Shown here: in pieces, positions 7,249-49,008 of the stretch
How positions within the stretch are numbered: the stretch's first letter is position 1
Layout of the letters: every line of letters starts with the position of its first letter
From: Klenkia marina
GTDB taxonomy: Bacteria > Actinomycetota > Actinomycetes > Mycobacteriales > Geodermatophilaceae
Length of the DNA: 64,000 nt
Assembly (NCBI RefSeq): GCF_900101025.1
Contig: NZ_FMUH01000002.1
Location: forward strand, 310,001 to 374,000
Reading direction: 5' to 3'
Notes under the pieces: generated by a model
Databases searched by the model: none
The model's input: the letters and a program-made list of their open reading frames with translations, nothing else
What the model was told of the DNA's origin: nothing
Translations under genes and position numbers: made by a program

Positions 7249-8619
7249 GTGACCGAGTACGCCGTCGTCGACCCCGCCACCGGCGAGACCGTGGCCAGCT
7301 ACCCCACCGCCACCGACGAGCAGGTCGAGGCCGCCATCGCCGCAGCCACCGCCGCGCACCGCGGCTGGTCGCGCAGCTCGAGCGCCGCCGAGCGGGGCGC
7401 CCTGCTGCGCCGCGTCGCCGAGCTGCACCGCGAGCGCAGGGCCGAGCTGGCCGCGATCATCGTGCGCGAGATGGGCAAGACCATCACCGCCGCCGAGGGC
7501 GAGGTGGACTTCGCCGCCGACATCTACGAGTACAACGCCGACAACGCCGAGAAGGTCACCGCCGACCAGCCGATCGACCTGGCCGAGGGCTCGCAGGGCA
7601 CCGCGGTGATCCGGCGGGCGTCGCTGGGCCCGTTGCTGGGCGTCATGCCGTGGAACTTCCCGTACTACCAGGTGGCCCGGTTCGCCGGCCCGAACCTGGC
7701 GGTCGGCAACACGATCATCCTCAAGCACGCCCCGCAGTGCCCCGAGTCCGCGGCCGCCATCGAGAAGATCTTCCTCGACGCCGGCTTCCCCGAGGGCGCC
7801 TACGTCAACGTCTACGCCAGCAACGACCAGGCCGCGACCATCATCGGCGACCCCCGCGTGCAGGGCGTGTCGCTCACCGGTTCCGAGCGGGCCGGCACCG
7901 CGGTCGCCGAGGTGGCCGGCAAGCACCTGAAGAAGGTGGCGCTGGAGCTGGGCGGGTCCGACCCGTTCATCCTGCTCTCCACCGACGACCTCGACGGTGC
8001 CGTGTCGGCCGCGGTCGAGGCGCGGATGGACAACAGCGGGCAGTCCTGCAACGCGGCCAAGCGGTTCGTCGTCCACGCCGACCTGTACGAGGACTTCCTC
8101 GCCGGCATCGTCGCCGCGATGACCGCCATCGAGCCCGCCGACCCGACGAAGGCCGAGACGGAGCTGGGCCCGCTGTCCTCGCTGCGCGCCGCCGAGACCC
8201 TCGACCAGCAGGTGCAGCGGGCCGTCGCCGCCGGCGCCACCCTCGTCGCGGGCGGCACGCGCGAGGGCGCGTTCTTCGAGCCCACCGTGCTCACCGACGT
8301 CACGCCGGACAACCCGGCCTACGGCGAGGAGTTCTTCGGCCCGGTCGCGGTCGTGTACTCGGTGCCCGACGAGGACGCCGCCGTCGAGCTGGCCAACGAC
8401 ACCGGCTTCGGGCTGGGCTCCTACGTGTTCACCACCGACCCCGAGCAGGGCGAGCGCGTGGCGAACCGCATCGAGGCCGGCATGGTCTACGTCAACCTGG
8501 TGCTCGCCGACTCGCCCGAACTGCCCTTCGGCGGCGTCAAGCGCAGTGGCACCTCGCGCGAGATGGGCCTGCTGGCCGCCGACGAGTTCGTCAACAAGAA
8601 GCTGGTCCGCATCGGCTGA
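7249..8619 (+). CDS. NAD(P)-dependent aldehyde dehydrogenase (semialdehyde type)
   Basis: A 456-residue ALDH. The catalytic Cys is in NSGQSCNAAKRF (Cys267), the general-base Glu in ELGGSDPFI (Glu233), and the cofactor-anchoring motif PWNFPYY at about 134-140. Length and the short N-terminus match the succinate-semialdehyde dehydrogenase-like subgroup (GabD/YneI type). It oxidises aldehydes to acids; with the amine oxidase and agmatinase nearby it could oxidise 4-aminobutanal or succinate semialdehyde. Start GTG at 7249 follows GATCGGAGCACCC. It is a single-gene unit, closed by the hairpin at 8659. The enzyme class is certain, the substrate inferred. Confidence 0.92.
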   Translation: MTEYAVVDPATGETVASYPTATDEQVEAAIAAATAAHRGWSRSSSAAERGALLRRVAELHRERRAELAAIIVREMGKTITAAEGEVDFAADIYEYNADNAEKVTADQPIDLAEGSQGTAVIRRASLGPLLGVMPWNFPYYQVARFAGPNLAVGNTIILKHAPQCPESAAAIEKIFLDAGFPEGAYVNVYASNDQAATIIGDPRVQGVSLTGSERAGTAVAEVAGKHLKKVALELGGSDPFILLSTDDLDGAVSAAVEARMDNSGQSCNAAKRFVVHADLYEDFLAGIVAAMTAIEPADPTKAETELGPLSSLRAAETLDQQVQRAVAAGATLVAGGTREGAFFEPTVLTDVTPDNPAYGEEFFGPVAVVYSVPDEDAAVELANDTGFGLGSYVFTTDPEQGERVANRIEAGMVYVNLVLADSPELPFGGVKRSGTSREMGLLAADEFVNKKLVRIG

Positions 8620-8658
8620 CGCTGGGCGACCGCTGAGGTCGAACTCGGCTGCGCCACA

Positions 8659-8706
8659 GCGCGGGGTCCGATGGTGGTCAGGACGCACCACCACCGGACC
8701 CCGCGC
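8659..8706. terminator. Long hairpin after aldehyde dehydrogenase gene
   Basis: A 20-bp stem with one A-C mismatch (8659-8678 with 8687-8706) and an 8-nt loop. It starts 39 nt after the aldehyde dehydrogenase stop and ends immediately before the AGGAGCAG ribosome site of the next gene, so besides terminating transcription it could affect translation of that gene. Confidence 0.65.
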
Positions 8707-8716
8707 AGGAGCAGAC

Positions 8717-9145
8717 GTGACCGACCCGCAGCACCCCCGCACCGAGCAGTTCCCCCCGGCCACCCCGCCGAGCGACCCCGCCGTCCACACCCAGGCGCAG
8801 CCGTACGCCGGCGATGCGCCGGTCGAGGAGGCCCCGCACACGCGGCGCCGCAGCGGGAAGGCGCGGGTGGCACTGGTGGCCGCTGCGGCCGTCGGGCTGG
8901 CCGCCGTCGGCGGGGGTGGCTTCGCCGTGGGGCGGGCGACCGCGCCCGACACTGCAACGTCGTCCACGACCGACCAGGAGTTCCCGGGCGGCGGTCGGTT
9001 CGGCACCCCGCCCGGCGACGGGCAGCTGGTCACCCCGCCCGACGGCGACCAGTTCGGCACCCCGCCAGGCCAGGACGGCACCACCGACGGCATCACCACC
9101 GACGGGACCACCACCGACGGCGCGACGTCCGAGCCCACCACCTGA
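8717..9145 (+). CDS. Hypothetical single-pass membrane-anchored protein
   Basis: A 142-residue protein that I do not recognise. It has a hydrophilic N-terminal 50 residues rich in Pro, Thr and Glu, a basic patch RRRSGK, one hydrophobic segment (about residues 53-75, ending GGGFAVGRA), and a low-complexity outer tail with repeats of GTPPG-like and TTDG units. The order suggests an N-in, C-out membrane protein with a flexible extracellular tail. The GTG start at 8717 has AGGAGCAG 6 nt upstream. No partner gene is evident; it stands alone between two hairpins. Confidence 0.65.
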   Translation: MTDPQHPRTEQFPPATPPSDPAVHTQAQPYAGDAPVEEAPHTRRRSGKARVALVAAAAVGLAAVGGGGFAVGRATAPDTATSSTTDQEFPGGGRFGTPPGDGQLVTPPDGDQFGTPPGQDGTTDGITTDGTTTDGATSEPTT

Positions 9146-14543: not shown

Positions 14544-14549
14544 CAGGGT
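14544..14549 (+). promoter_or_regulatory. -10-like element of acetoacetyl-CoA synthetase gene
   Basis: CAGGGT 7 nt before the GTG at 14557, in the context CTGGCAGGGTG that recurs before the gene at 48251. The spacing suits a leaderless transcript beginning at the start codon. Confidence 0.4.
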
Positions 14550-14556
14550 GCGGGGG

Positions 14557-16524
14557 GTGATGCTGTGGTCGCCGACACCGGAATCCATCGCCGCCTCCCA
14601 GCTGGGGCGGTTCGCTGCCTGGGCCGCCGACCGCCGCGGCATCCCGCTGCGCGGCTACGACGAGATCTGGGCGTGGTCGACGTCGCACCTGGACCAGTTC
14701 TGGGCCGACGTCGCCACCTGGTTCGACGTCTTCGAGGGCGAGGAGCCGGTCACCGACGACGAGGTGCTCGGGTCGCGGGCGATGCCCGGGGCCGAGTGGT
14801 TCCCGCGGCGCACGGTCAACCTGGCCCAGCTCGCGCTGCGGCACGCCACCGACGACCGGCCGGCGATCGTGTCGGTGCACGAGACCGCCGAGGGACTGAG
14901 CGATCCCGCATCGATGTCCTGGGCCGACCTGCGGGGTCAGGTGGGCGCCTTCGCCGCGACGCTGCGCCGGCTCGGGGTGCAGCGCGGCGACCGGGTGGCC
15001 GGCTACCTGCCCAACGTGCCCGAGGCGGTCGTCGCCTTCCTCGGCTGCGCCTCGATCGGCGCCGTCTGGTCGGCGTGTGCGCCGGACTTCGGCCCGCGCG
15101 CGGTGCTCGACCGGTTCGCCCAGATCGAGCCGGTGGTGCTGGTCGCCTGCGACGGCTACCGGTTCGGCGGCCGCGAGCACGACCGCCGGGACGTCGTCGC
15201 CGACCTGCGGGCCGCGCTGCCCACCGTGCGGACGACGATCGCGCTGCCCCGCCTGCACGCCGAGGTCCCCGCCGACGCGCTGCCGTGGGCCGAGGCGGTG
15301 GCCGACCTCCAGCCGCCGGTGTTCGAGGCGCTGCCCTTCGACCACCCGCTGTGGATCGTCTACTCCTCGGGCACCACGGGGCTGCCGAAGGGGATCGTGC
15401 ACGGGCACGGCGGGGTGGCGATCGAGCAGCTCAAGCAGGCCGGGTTGCACATCGACATCGGGCCCGGCGACCGGTTCTCCTGGTACGCCTCGACCGCCTG
15501 GATCATGTGGAACATCGCGGCCTGCTCGCTGCTGACCGGCGCGACGCTGGTGGTGCACGACGGCGCCCCGGGCTTCCCGTCGCTCGACGCCCAGTTCGCG
15601 GTCGCCGAGCGCTGCGGCACCACCTACCTCGGTACCAGCGCCGGGTACCTGACCGCGTGCGAGAAGGCCGGGCTGCGCCCTGGTGATGCGCACGACCTGT
15701 CGGCGTTGCGGGGGATCGGGTCGACCGGGTCGCCGCTGCCGGCGTCGACGTTCGAGTGGGTGTACGCGGCGGTGAAGCCCGACGTGTTCCTCGGCTCGCT
15801 GTCCGGCGGCACCGACGTGGCCACCGGGTTCATCGGCTCGTCGCTGCTGCTGCCGGTGGTGGCCGGAGAGCTGCAGCGACCGATGCTGGGGGTCGCCGCC
15901 GCGTCGTGGGACGAGGACGGCCACCCGGTGGTGGGGGAGCTCGGCGAGCTGGTGGTCACCGAGCCGATGCCCACGATGCCGCTGCGCTTCTGGGCCGACG
16001 CCGACGGTTCGCGCTACCGGGAGGCCTACTTCGAGCCGTGGCCCGGTGTGTGGCGGCACGGCGACTGGCTGGAGATCACCCCCACCGGCAGCTGCATCAT
16101 CACCGGCCGCTCGGACTCCACGCTCAACCGCGGCGGCGTGCGCATGGGGACGGCGGACCTCTACGCCGCGGTCGAGAGCATCCCCGCCATCGCCGACTGC
16201 GTGGTGCTCGGCGTCGAGCAGCGCGACGGCGGCTACTGGATGCCGCTGTTCGTGCAGCTGGCACCGGGGTTCGAGCTGACCGACGCGCTGGTGACCGAGA
16301 TCCGCGAGGCGGTGAAGCGCGAGGCCAGCCCGCGGCACGTGCCCGACGAGGTGCTCGTCGTCCCCGGCGTGCCGCACACCCGCACCGGCAAGCGCCTGGA
16401 GGTCCCGCTCAAGCGCCTGTTCCAGGGCGTCCCGCCGGAGAAGGCCCTGAACCTCGGCGCGGTCGACGACGCCGAGGTCGTGCAGCACTACGTGGCGCTG
16501 GCCGCCGACCGCGGCGTCCGCTGA
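14557..16524 (+). CDS. Acetoacetyl-CoA synthetase
   Basis: A 655-residue acyl-adenylate enzyme. The ATP-binding signature YSSGTTGLPKGIVH, the early FAAWAADRRGIPLRGYDEIWAWS, the RFWADADGSRY region and the hinge-Lys motif RTGKRLEVPLKRL fit acetoacetyl-CoA synthetase (AacS) and not acetyl-CoA synthetase. It activates acetoacetate for ketone-body or PHB-derived carbon use; the thiolase at 49011 could then cleave the product. GTG at 14557 and ATG at 14560 are adjacent candidate starts; a -10-like CAGGGT 7 nt before the GTG favours a leaderless start there. It is divergent from the GH15-zwf operon and ends at an elaborate hairpin/G-rich element. Confidence 0.9.
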   Translation: MMLWSPTPESIAASQLGRFAAWAADRRGIPLRGYDEIWAWSTSHLDQFWADVATWFDVFEGEEPVTDDEVLGSRAMPGAEWFPRRTVNLAQLALRHATDDRPAIVSVHETAEGLSDPASMSWADLRGQVGAFAATLRRLGVQRGDRVAGYLPNVPEAVVAFLGCASIGAVWSACAPDFGPRAVLDRFAQIEPVVLVACDGYRFGGREHDRRDVVADLRAALPTVRTTIALPRLHAEVPADALPWAEAVADLQPPVFEALPFDHPLWIVYSSGTTGLPKGIVHGHGGVAIEQLKQAGLHIDIGPGDRFSWYASTAWIMWNIAACSLLTGATLVVHDGAPGFPSLDAQFAVAERCGTTYLGTSAGYLTACEKAGLRPGDAHDLSALRGIGSTGSPLPASTFEWVYAAVKPDVFLGSLSGGTDVATGFIGSSLLLPVVAGELQRPMLGVAAASWDEDGHPVVGELGELVVTEPMPTMPLRFWADADGSRYREAYFEPWPGVWRHGDWLEITPTGSCIITGRSDSTLNRGGVRMGTADLYAAVESIPAIADCVVLGVEQRDGGYWMPLFVQLAPGFELTDALVTEIREAVKREASPRHVPDEVLVVPGVPHTRTGKRLEVPLKRLFQGVPPEKALNLGAVDDAEVVQHYVALAADRGVR

Positions 16525-16530
16525 CCCTCA

Positions 16531-16553
16531 CCCCACCCCCACCCCCACCCCCC
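16531..16553 (-). other. G-quadruplex motif on minus strand
   Basis: Read on the minus strand this is G6-T-G5-T-G5-T-G4: four G tracts with single-nucleotide loops, the most stable class of parallel quadruplex. Transcription from the lipoprotein gene would place it just after the 25-bp hairpin. Confidence 0.7.
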
Positions 16554-16617
16554 GGCGTCACATGACGCTGAGGACCCAGAATCGGCAGGAAGTGGGTCCT
16601 CAGCGTCATGTGACGCC
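16554..16617. terminator. Perfect 25-bp stem hairpin between convergent genes
   Basis: 16554-16578 is exactly complementary to 16593-16617, with a 14-nt loop. Each arm also contains its own palindrome (GCGTCA-CA-TGACGC and its complement). It sits between the convergent acetoacetyl-CoA synthetase and lipoprotein genes and probably terminates both. No T-run follows; instead a G-quadruplex motif follows the hairpin in each direction. Confidence 0.75.
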
Positions 16618-16620
16618 TCC

Positions 16621-16642
16621 GGGGGCGGGGCGTGGGGTGGGG
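16621..16642 (+). other. G-quadruplex motif on plus strand
   Basis: G5-C-G4-CGT-G4-T-G4 on the plus strand, 3 nt after the hairpin in the direction of acetoacetyl-CoA synthetase transcription. Loops are 1, 3 and 1 nt. Confidence 0.65.
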
Positions 16643-16658
16643 TGAGGTGGGAGCGAGG

Positions 16659-18377
16659 TCAGCGGGTGGGGGGCTGGCCGCCGCCGCCCGGGCCGCCGCC
16701 GGCGAAGCCACCGCCGCCCGTGCCGCCGCCCATCCCGCCCGCCGCTGCCTCGCCCGCGGTGACCGTCGTCGCGGTGCCGCCGTCGACCGAGACCGAGTAG
16801 GTCTCGCCGGTCGTGATCCCGGCCGCCGAGACCACCAGCGAGGCGATGGCCTTCTCCGCGGTGTAGCTGGCCACGACGGTGCCGTCGGCCGAGGTGACCA
16901 CCACGGTCGAGCCCGCGGTCGCCGTCCCCGACCAGGCCAGCCAGCCCTGGGCGGAGTCGGTGCCGGGGGACTCGGCCATGCCGGAGCTGCCGCCGGCCAC
17001 CAGCGTGCCGCCGCTGACCGCGATGCCGCCGTTGCTGTCCAGCGCCCCGTTGCCGTCGCCGGTGGGCCCGAAGACGGTGGTGTCCCCGCCGGTGATGCTG
17101 ATCGAGCCGTTGGAGTCCAGGCCGTCGCCCTCGGCACTGACCACCAGGGTGCCCCCGCTGATGGTGAGCGTGCTGCCGTCGTCCTGCATGCCCCCGCCGC
17201 CCGTGCCGCCGCCGGTGTCGGACGTCGACCCGGCCGAGGCGTTGACCCCGTCGTCCGAGGCCGTGACCGTCGTCGTCCCGCCCGAGAGGGTGATCGCCGC
17301 GCTCTCCAGGCCCTCGACCGCGTCGACCACGGTCAGCGTGCCGCCGGAGATCGTGAGGTCGGCGTCGGCGTGCACCCCGTCGTCCGCGGCGGTGAGCGTC
17401 TGCGTGCCGCCGGTGATCGAGATCGCGCCGTTCGAGTGCAGGGCGTCGTCGGTGGAGTCCACGGTGAGGTCGCCGCCGCCGATGACCACGCTCACGTCGC
17501 CCTCCACGCCCTTCGCCGACTCCCCGTCGGTGGCCACGTCGAGGATCCCGCCGCCGAGGACGACATCGGTCGCTGCGGACACCCCGTCGTCCCCCGCGGT
17601 CACGGTGACCGTGCCGTCGGCGACGTAGACGTAGCCGCGGGTGGTGTCCTCGGTGTCGTCGCTCTTCAGGCCGTCGCCGCCGGCGGTGACGGTGACGTCG
17701 CCCGTGAGCACGACCACCGAGTCCTGGCCCCGGATCCCGTCGTCGGCGGCGTCGACGGTGATCGTCCCGGACTCGATCGTGACCCCGTCGGAGCTGTTGA
17801 CGCCGTCGTTCGAGGCCCCGGTGACGGTGAGCGACCCCGTGCCGGTGATCACCAGGTCGGCGCTGGAGTCGACTGCCGCGCTGGTGCCGTCGTCGGCGTG
17901 TTCGGCCGTGTCGGCCAGGGTGTTCGTGGTCCCGTCGGCGAGCGACAGGACGACGGTCTCGGCGTCCGTCACCGCGATCGCCGCGCTGGTGGGTGAGGTG
18001 ATGGTGGCGCCGTCCAGCACGAGGACGACGTCCTCGGTGTCGGCGGCGTCGACGACGACCTGGCCCTCGAACGTGCCCGACAGCACGTAGGTGCCGGCAG
18101 CGGTGATCGTGACGGTGTTCCCGTCCACGGTCACGGCGGAGGAGTCGGAGGAGGCGGTGTCGCCCTCCAGCGAGATCGCCGTGCCCGACCCGACGGACGA
18201 CGAGGTCACCCAGCCGTCGTTCGCGGCCAGGGTCTCCTCGACGGTGCTGGCGGAGGCCGCGACGACCTCGGCGGAGGAGGCCGTGGTCGTGGTGCCGGTG
18301 GACGTGGTGCCGCAGGCGGCGACGAGGGTGGCGGCGGCACCGGCCACGAGGGCGGTGCGGATGCGGCGCAGGTTCAC
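16659..18377 (-). CDS. Carbohydrate-binding (DUF4353-type) repeat lipoprotein
   Basis: A 572-residue secreted lipoprotein. The signal peptide ends in the lipobox LVAAC at about residues 18-22. The mature part is a long run of beta-helix-like repeats of the form ISGGTLTV-x-A-DDGV/DGLDSNG, strongly enriched in Asp, Gly and Thr, matching the carbohydrate-binding DUF4353 type that accompanies CotH and VTC-domain genes. A Gly-rich tail with GGGTGGGGF units closes the protein. Such Asp-rich turns often bind calcium. It is coupled by a 4-nt overlap to the VTC-domain gene, suggesting that it acts on or binds the polymer that system makes at the cell surface; this role is inference. Confidence 0.85.
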   Translation of the reverse strand: MNLRRIRTALVAGAAATLVAACGTTSTGTTTTASSAEVVAASASTVEETLAANDGWVTSSSVGSGTAISLEGDTASSDSSAVTVDGNTVTITAAGTYVLSGTFEGQVVVDAADTEDVVLVLDGATITSPTSAAIAVTDAETVVLSLADGTTNTLADTAEHADDGTSAAVDSSADLVITGTGSLTVTGASNDGVNSSDGVTIESGTITVDAADDGIRGQDSVVVLTGDVTVTAGGDGLKSDDTEDTTRGYVYVADGTVTVTAGDDGVSAATDVVLGGGILDVATDGESAKGVEGDVSVVIGGGDLTVDSTDDALHSNGAISITGGTQTLTAADDGVHADADLTISGGTLTVVDAVEGLESAAITLSGGTTTVTASDDGVNASAGSTSDTGGGTGGGGMQDDGSTLTISGGTLVVSAEGDGLDSNGSISITGGDTTVFGPTGDGNGALDSNGGIAVSGGTLVAGGSSGMAESPGTDSAQGWLAWSGTATAGSTVVVTSADGTVVASYTAEKAIASLVVSAAGITTGETYSVSVDGGTATTVTAGEAAAGGMGGGTGGGGFAGGGPGGGGQPPTR

Positions 18378-23349: not shown

Positions 23350-23433
23350 TGGATCAGCTGGGTTGATCCAACTCCGTCCTGGTTCACCGACGCCGGTGAG
23401 CCAGGACGGCCTCTGGTGGACCCAGCTGATCCA
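23350..23433. repeat. Dispersed palindromic repeat, copy A
   Basis: Nested inverted repeats: outer stem 23350-23363 with 23420-23433 (14 bp, perfect) and inner stem 23374-23389 with 23394-23409 (16 bp with one G-T pair, 4-nt loop). The inner stem and the flank TGATCCACGCCGG are shared with 48941-49008, so this is a repeated element. It sits between convergent genes and probably also terminates transcription. Confidence 0.75.
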
Positions 23434-48940: not shown

Positions 48941-49008
48941 TCCGTCCTGGCTCACCGGCGTCGGTGAGCCAGGACGGACTTCGATCAGCTGAGCTGATCC
49001 ACGCCGGG
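48941..49008. repeat. Dispersed palindromic repeat, copy B
   Basis: Perfect 17-bp stem 48941-48957 with 48962-48978 (4-nt loop), nearly identical to the inner stem at 23374-23409. It is followed by a second palindrome GATCAGCT-G-AGCTGATC (48983-48999) and CACGCCGGG, again as in copy A. Like copy A it separates convergent genes. Confidence 0.75.

Follow-up and report, generated by a model that had tools for sequence, protein, structure and literature searches.

What does a perfect palindrome without a U-tract do between two convergent genes of Klenkia marina, and does it belong to this site alone? The locus lies in a stretch of 64,000 nucleotides of the genome, referred to below as the window, in which genes were called by a codon-score finder trained on the window itself, no annotation being used. 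It consists of the following features, in window coordinates.

16554 to 16617, no strand assigned: F1 element, a 64-nt palindrome with a perfect 25-bp stem and a 14-nt loop (direct reading, alignment)
16556 to 16567, no strand assigned: first CGTC-RNNY-GACG block (CGTCACATGACG), its CGTC and GACG near-invariant in 52 aligned copies
16604 to 16615, no strand assigned: second CGTC-RNNY-GACG block (CGTCATGTGACG), 48 bp from the first, a spacing fixed in the 64-nt copies
16572 to 16578, no strand assigned: 5' arm of the apical stem, covarying (element columns 19-25)
16593 to 16599, no strand assigned: 3' arm of the apical stem (element columns 40-46)
16579 to 16592, no strand assigned: loop of 14 nt, identical in length in the 52 aligned copies
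16531 to 16553, minus strand: C-rich left flank (G6TG5TG5TG4 on the minus strand), predicted to pair with the right flank and peculiar to the window copy
16621 to 16642, plus strand: G-rich right flank (G5CG4CGTG4TG4), predicted to pair with the left flank and peculiar to the window copy
14548 to 16524, plus strand: AMP-binding enzyme gene (AACS), converging from the left (PF00501, PF13193)
16659 to 18377, minus strand: gene of a Cthe_2159-type carbohydrate-binding protein, converging from the right (PF14262)

The AMP-binding gene at 14548-16524 is presumably acetoacetyl-CoA synthetase-like, hence the short name AACS. The structural part of the original prediction was borne out. By direct reading, positions 16554-16578 (GGCGTCACATGACGCTGAGGACCCA) pair with 16593-16617 in a perfect 25-bp stem, the neighbouring genes converge and end at 16524 (plus) and 16659 (minus), and the runs of G stand on opposite strands as described, minus to the left (G6-T-G5-T-G5-T-G4) and plus to the right (G5-C-G4-CGT-G4-T-G4). 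The suggested extension to about 50 bp was reproduced by the plus-strand minimum free energy structure, which has 50 pairs outside the loop. The stem lies 29 and 41 nt from the two flanking stop codons. The folding energies of the RNAs read in the two directions were determined to be -113.2 and -115.6 kcal/mol (z -13.5 and -12.0), and none of 200 shuffles was as stable in either direction. According to a simple composition model, about 1e-5 perfect 25-bp stems are expected per genome. The hairpin tops the inverted-repeat list of the window with 48-nt arms that are 79% complementary; another pair on the list has equally long arms, 73% complementary. No match above the gathering score of Rfam was obtained within the 64-kb window, so the hairpin was rejected as a known Rfam RNA.

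The window hairpin belongs to a family of dispersed palindromes, F1, of the genus Klenkia. The 14-mer GCGTCATGTGACGC occurred at six places of the 4.2-Mb genome, in five hairpins of like kind, and six F1 copies could be aligned without gaps over 64 nt. The genus was represented by nine genomes, G000 (the window genome) to G008, of which G008 is incomplete. A covariance-model search matched 7 of 41 genomes, the window genome included, in two genera, the second weakly. The models R1 and R2 scored the window copy at 9e-17 and 3e-13, this copy being among the building sequences of both. R2, built from 52 copies, matched six of the nine Klenkia genomes, G004, G005 and the incomplete G008 being the exceptions; the scores are high by construction because many of the copies matched had gone into R2. 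When 150 genomes drawn from the order were searched with R2 under stricter filters, four Klenkia genomes matched, and one other genome did so weakly. The full-length copies collected per genome numbered 13, 12, 12, 12, 9 and 6. Altogether 77 copies were collected, 75 from Klenkia and 2 from outside. By a rule on length and blocks, 59 of the 77 were classed as strong and used for the context and flank counts below. The 52-copy alignment consists of the 44 among the first 54 copies that were exactly 64 nt long and of 8 added from a pattern scan. Among the at least 80 loci listed from a block-pattern scan of GTDB genomes, 19 were from Klenkia and most of the others had a poor apical stem. The short-word search yielded noise, with the control above the pattern. 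Papers on these repeats were not found in the openly licensed texts searched. Close-packed copies were seen at three loci: two copies with one block in common, 48 bp apart, in L236 (1501-1612); two copies of differing subtype, 6 bp apart, in L074 (1431-1564); and two copies 94 bp apart in L099 (1475-1632).

The geometry of F1 was ungapped over 64 nt in the 52 copies, with two CGTC-RNNY-GACG blocks flanking the apical stem. Columns 3-6, 11-14, 51-54 and 59-62, i.e. CGTC and GACG twice, were nearly invariant. Columns 2/63 and 15/50 were mostly C or G irrespective of pairing, and no covariation was detected there. The apical stem (19-25/40-46) changed on both arms together, with A-U and G-C in pair 21-44 and C-G and A-U in pair 22-43. 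In the long hairpin 82.5% of the alignment cells were paired vs 74.0% in shuffles, and the covariation score was 0.318 vs 0.185. An alternative fold, composed of two small block hairpins and the apical stem, did about as well as the long hairpin (85.8% vs 82.5% of the cells paired) and may form in its place. From the alignment, conservation appears to act on the sequence of the blocks and on the structure of the apical part. Since the sequence of the blocks is conserved more strictly than pairing would require (columns 2/63 and 15/50 are without covariation), a role in RNA only is insufficient.

The strong copies sit mostly beside gene ends. Of the 59 strong copies, 23 were in convergent, 28 in tandem and 8 in divergent gaps, resulting in 51 at gene 3' ends. 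By intergenic length in 464 kb of the window genome, 15% convergent and 32% divergent copies would be expected; the p values for the convergent excess and for the divergent share were 5e-6 and 0.0012, respectively. For tandem copies, the median distance was 23 nt to the preceding stop and 83.5 nt to the following start, and convergent copies lay at a median of 20.5 nt from the stop. Six of the eight divergent copies, from five species, represent a single locus adjoining a VTT-domain gene (L222, L227, L228, L233, L097), the domain being assigned by Pfam in three of the species and by neighbour homology in the others. The opposite gene encodes an ECF sigma factor in the two species checked. A terminator role makes little sense at this locus. 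U-tracts were absent from F1: the 10 nt after the stem contained 1.09 T on average, and none of the 118 flanks had 5 or more T in these 10 nt. F1 was thereby rejected as a canonical intrinsic terminator, for which a U-tract should follow the hairpin. The combination found, a stable stem at most about 50 bp past the stop and no U-tract, is the one expected of an I-shaped terminator.

Strong hairpins at gene ends occur with and without F1. At a stem score of at least 12, the window genome had them in 15 of the 27 convergent gaps sampled, in 21 of 116 tandem gaps and in 2 of 55 divergent gaps, and the shuffles had none. The corresponding values of the F1-free G005 were 14 of 26, 23 of 104 and 1 of 53. 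A convergent site between a sigma-factor gene and a Band_7 gene had a hairpin in all nine genomes, which was F1 in G000, G001 and G007 only; hairpins without F1 blocks were found there in five genomes by script and in G005 by eye. The hairpin of G002 at this site may be an F1 remnant, as judged from its GGGCCCACCTCC-like apical stem, which also occurs in some F1 copies. At the window site, only G003 retains the AACS gene pair with room between the genes, and the gap holds a 19-bp stem without F1 blocks. At the sigma-factor/Band_7 and AACS sites, a hairpin is thus present with or without the F1 blocks, which suggests that the sites ask for a hairpin and that F1 is one supplier. From the sequences compared, structure rather than sequence seems to be kept at the conserved convergent site.

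In all six genomes with F1, two copies about 1.1 kb apart bracket a gene. The gene codes for 312-326 aa, has a low codon score, and its 3' end is overlapped by the downstream copy. The bracketing was taken from model and pattern hits together, and the second copy of G002 from the R2 model search only. As the locus is inherited, the six genomes amount to one event. In G005, which has no F1, the neighbours stand in the same order in the syntenic region, with another ORF present and with neither the bracketed gene nor the copies; this absence covers 400 kb and the syntenic site, i.e. one site in one F1-free genome. The proteins fell into identity groups (G000/G003/G006, 73-83%; G002/G007, 78%; G001, 61-66% to all) that match the F1 subtype at the locus, and an AACS fragment groups the species otherwise. 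The F1 copies of the cassette resembled the other copies of their own genome overall (p 0.010), hardly so in G006; those of G002 were closer to foreign copies than to the others of their own genome.

The C-terminus of the F1-bracketed protein matched PF18741 in all six genomes (E 2e-6 to 4e-10), above the cut-off in G002 only. AbiEi profiles of PADLOC matched up to four of the six proteins with a best E of 2.3e-8; the copy of G000 had no such match. The first predicted structure was poor (pLDDT 54.4), and a model from nine sequences reached a mean pLDDT of 69.6. In the latter, the C-terminal domain aligned with I-Bth0305I (3r3p; Z 10.3, rmsd 3.1 over 96 residues), NGO0050 (3hrl; Z 10.2) and Vsr (1cw0; Z 8.3). 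Residues 1-50 aligned with winged helices, the AbiEi antitoxin 6y8q giving a Z of 4.2 only. Foldseek matches were weak, all with E above 0.2 and the best at 0.22, no sequence relatives were found in the PDB, and the NCBIfam matches were stray and weak. According to the model, the C-terminal domain is predicted to have the Vsr/PD-(D/E)XK fold. The protein is thus like Vsr and I-Bth0305I in its modelled C-terminal fold and like the AbiEi antitoxin in its winged-helix-like N-terminus, but unlike each of them it fuses both domains.

Three further palindromes, F2 (CGTCCTGG..CCAGGACG), F3 (GGCCCAGAAC..GTTCTGGGCC) and F4 (GATGTCGGGG/CCCCGACATC), were found around AbiEi-like genes. The copies of F2 in the window and the cassettes of F3 and F4 are located as follows.

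Window, 23375-23408 and 48943-48976: F2 copies in convergent gaps
L260 (G000, C5), 1494-1540, 1577-2596 and 2832-2880: F3-bracketed AbiEi-like/DUF559 gene beside clpX
L252 (G000, C8), 7926-7986, 8166-8933 and 8954-9014: F4-bracketed AbiEi-like gene of a random stretch

The F2 pattern had 25, 17, 8, 8, 7 and 7 matches in the six F1 genomes, the 25 being those of the window genome, and none in G004, G005 and G008; inspection by eye assigned at least three of the eight G002 matches, one match of G000 and one of G007 to other sequences. The two F2-richest genomes, G000 and G006, each have an AbiEi-like gene between two F2 copies, arranged like the F1 cassette; in G000 the following gene, of ordinary codon score, likewise stands between a pair of F2 copies. 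The F2-bracketed proteins matched AbiEi with E values of 1.7e-22 and 4.4e-23 and had no Pfam nuclease match. Joint alignment with the F1-bracketed proteins gave 22-24% identity. The profile of the F1-bracketed proteins alone did not find the F2-bracketed gene, and the hhalign comparison gave an E of 0.008 and a probability of 4.9. L296 was found by both profiles (F1, 5e-7; F2, 3e-8). Judged by sequence, the F1-F2 protein link appears to run only through the AbiEi-like part and L296. A weak AbiEi/F2-type relative without bracketing palindromes was observed in L244 at 16425-17510 (G000, C7).

The gene of L260, bracketed by two F3 palindromes, is a clear relative of the F1 gene (profile E 2e-54), with PF18741 and DUF559 above the cut-off. 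In other genera, a third palindrome of the GATGGCCCAGAAC type, as in F3, adjoins a sigma gene in five of the six loci checked, and Band_7 was confirmed opposite the sigma gene in one of them. As a dispersed family in Geodermatophilaceae, F3 (GATGGCCCA) was rejected, since it occurred in 9 of 76 genomes at one or two places each. The two F4 palindromes of L252 are 61 nt long with 17-bp stems, and two more intergenic positions within 464 kb carry F4-like words. An F4-similar arm pair was seen downstream of AACS in L271 (G007).

The bracketed genes of F1, F2 and F3 were found through their palindromes. Among five relatives of bracketed genes in unselected stretches, one was bracketed (L252), and L244, L288, L296 and L300 were without a matching pair. 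A plain hairpin bracketing test was positive for one of six F1 loci, two of two F2 loci and the single F3 locus, and negative for L244; L252 was missed because loops of up to 20 nt were allowed and those of L252 have 21 nt. Flanking hairpins with a common 9-mer were found for 3 of 273 and 0 of 256 sampled control genes.

Several described systems resemble F1 in part. CGTC- and GTAG-tagged REPs are short dispersed palindromes situated mostly between convergent or co-directional genes, beside 3' ends, and in the available text of that study CGTC REPs have no known transposase, are often paired, and the way they move is left open by the authors (PMC3733652). F1 is similarly a dispersed palindrome adjoining 3' ends. 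A CGTC REP is defined there by an unpaired CGTC tag at one end, an unpaired tail that is mostly CCA, a stem of 8-9 bp and a loop of 4-5 nt, whereas F1 spans 64 nt, places CGTC in a palindromic block at either end and has a 25-column stem with a loop of 14 nt; Actinomycetota is not among the phyla named in the available text (PMC3733652). Against that definition, F1 was rejected as carrying the CGTC tag, its CGTC standing at both ends and being pairable (columns 3-6/59-62, in at least 50 of 52 copies) with no CCA tail. It was also rejected as a GTAG REP, since CGTC/GACG blocks, not GTAG, stand at both ends of the 52 aligned copies. The Y1 transposase PF01797, found by the control in 5 of 14 known genomes, had no match in the nine Klenkia genomes, which rules F1 out as a RAYT-driven REP. 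The F1 locus resembles RAYT-REP units (REPtrons) in that a nuclease-type gene is bracketed by two copies of a dispersed palindrome, and differs from them in the gene, which would encode an AbiEi-like winged helix with a Vsr/PD-(D/E)XK fold and not a RAYT. Palindromes are mentioned for CRISPR only in the available text of PMC9686282.

U-poor structured 3' ends are described for Streptomyces (PMC8269248, PMC12207403). Of 535 highly structured 3' ends in S. clavuligerus, 353 were without U, and the authors interpret them as I-shaped terminators or as Rho ends that are protected (PMC8269248). In a Term-seq atlas of 13 species, the Streptomyces hairpins are described as the most stable and the longest (PMC12207403). 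I-shaped terminators are described for mycobacteria in a review whose cited titles point both ways on U-less termination (PMC12288462). F1 resembles these Actinomycetota 3' ends in its strong stem near the stop followed by few U (PMC12288462, PMC8269248). It differs from them in its conserved sequence blocks and in being a repeat family.

On this evidence, F1 is rather likely to be a REP-like, U-less hairpin that serves 3' ends in both directions, perhaps spread by the bracketed AbiEi-like/Vsr-fold protein. As DNA, the element is two near-identical palindromic blocks 48 bp apart, and the stem between them differs in sequence from copy to copy but retains its pairing. At convergent and tandem ends, transcription would reach it immediately past the stop codon, at convergent sites from either side. 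The RNA is predicted to fold into a very stable hairpin without a U-tract, which most likely defines mRNA 3' ends, either by pausing or ending transcription in the manner of an I-shaped terminator or by blocking 3'-5' exonucleases after Rho-dependent termination. Definition of the 3' end is the role favoured by the sequence data, and its two forms, pausing/termination and exonuclease protection, are not ranked. The G/C-rich flanks would mainly lengthen the stem of the window copy. As the linkage suggests, F1 was probably spread, or kept similar by conversion, through the bracketed protein. The symmetric terminator or RNA 3'-end stabiliser of the original prediction therefore stands as far as the convergent 3'-end position and the enrichment of hairpins go and loses its G-quadruplex part, the mechanism being inference.

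The main alternative is that F1 is a selfish REP-like repeat without any function for the cell, collecting at 3' ends because insertions are least harmful there. The copies are dispersed and limited to a clade, some are close-packed (L099, L236) or stand in divergent gaps, and a gene is bracketed, all of which would suit such a repeat. So would the likeness of copies within a species across loci. There are three recurring subtypes, roughly ATGT/GGACCC, ACCT/GGCCC and GATC/CGATCA, and one orthologous site may carry differing subtypes across species. For the 60 copies compared, the mean identity was 0.668 at the same site in different species (76 pairs), 0.648 in the same species at different sites (279 pairs) and 0.617 with neither in common (1409 pairs), and the permutation p was 0.0005 for both excesses. 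Inheritance by site together with likeness within the genome would fit conversion or replacement among F1 copies. Shared sites speak against such a repeat: 57 of the 75 Klenkia copies fell into 16 neighbour-based clusters common to at least two species, where clusters were formed by single linkage on one matching neighbour and a few may join two sites. The occupation of the same sites elsewhere by non-F1 hairpins suggests that a hairpin is kept, and paired changes maintain the apical stem. We consider the purely selfish repeat unlikely.

A site acting at the DNA level is a still less probable explanation than the selfish repeat. Here a dimeric protein, perhaps the AbiEi-like domain, would bind both blocks as a roadblock or insulator, and the RNA hairpin would be a by-product. 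The near-invariant blocks with neighbouring columns that vary without covarying, the fixed 48-bp spacing and the existence of divergent copies are what such a site would show. However, the apical stem covaries across its arms and hairpins without the blocks replace F1. Lone CGTC-RNNY-GACG sites were not enriched either, with 7 in 464 kb vs a mean of 6.7 for control palindromes and 5 in 400 kb vs 5.2, by which lone blocks were ruled out as a genome-wide signal.

The original prediction had a G-quadruplex (G4) follow the hairpin in each direction. The motifs are real and rare: four runs of at least 4 G occurred 6 times in the 464 kb sampled, and 2 of these were the flanks of the window copy. Each flank alone was predicted to form a G4 (-41.7 and -40.8), and a hairpin with a G4 was predicted only once the C-flank had been removed (-97.8 and -95.6). 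With full flanks, the extended stem was preferred over the G4 (-113.2 and -115.6), and even the G4-allowed fold paired the C-rich with the G-rich flank (-113.2) and retained the 50-pair stem. In the folding model, a G4 could form at the window copy if another partner occupied the C-flank. With a flank motif defined as four runs of at least 3 G within 60 nt downstream of the stem, both sides had the motif in 2 of the 59 strong copies, the window copy included. Single flanks had it in 12 of 118 cases, all downstream (0 of 118 upstream), vs 14 expected when the letters of these flanks are shuffled. When the window copy was excluded, the motif was more frequent at F1 (10 of 116) than at other strong hairpins (1 of 100; p 0.012), the latter being 0 of 49 in the window genome and 1 of 51 in G005. 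An uneven base composition accompanies this bias. In convergent copies other than the window one, the stretch from stop to element had a C content of 0.53 and a G content of 0.25, with the mirror side G-rich, and the baseline after convergent stops was 0.45 and 0.33, respectively. As this stretch is C-rich, a G4 motif found past the hairpin is the other gene's C-rich 3' stretch read in reverse, and the downstream bias is taken to belong to a C-then-G skew at F1 copies. G-rich flanks are somewhat typical of F1 and are not needed. In L244, a convergent gap was seen to contain a run of five GGGGC units and no strong hairpin. With other strong hairpins generally free of the motif and the orthologous AACS/Cthe_2159 site of G003 holding a differing hairpin without G-runs, a two-way terminator in which a G4 replaces the U-tract is very improbable.

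The preferred reading, a REP-like hairpin used at 3' ends, can be extended to the other palindromes. AbiEi-like proteins, of which at least some have a Vsr-fold nuclease domain, would each recognise the palindrome that brackets their gene (F1-F4), spread or convert its copies and in this way supply interchangeable U-less 3'-end hairpins. This wider proposal, drawn from gene arrangement, is put forward tentatively, as one that may well prove wrong; the role given to the bracketing protein rests on linkage, one absence and one unselected case (L252).

How transcript ends are marked without U-tracts in high-GC Actinomycetota is debated, and a site that keeps a hairpin while the sequence is exchanged makes the question of U-less 3' ends testable site by site. 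If the bracketed protein does recognise its palindrome, it would be, to our knowledge, the first candidate enzyme for REP-like repeats that lack a RAYT, and REPs without a transposase would thereby gain a candidate enzyme.
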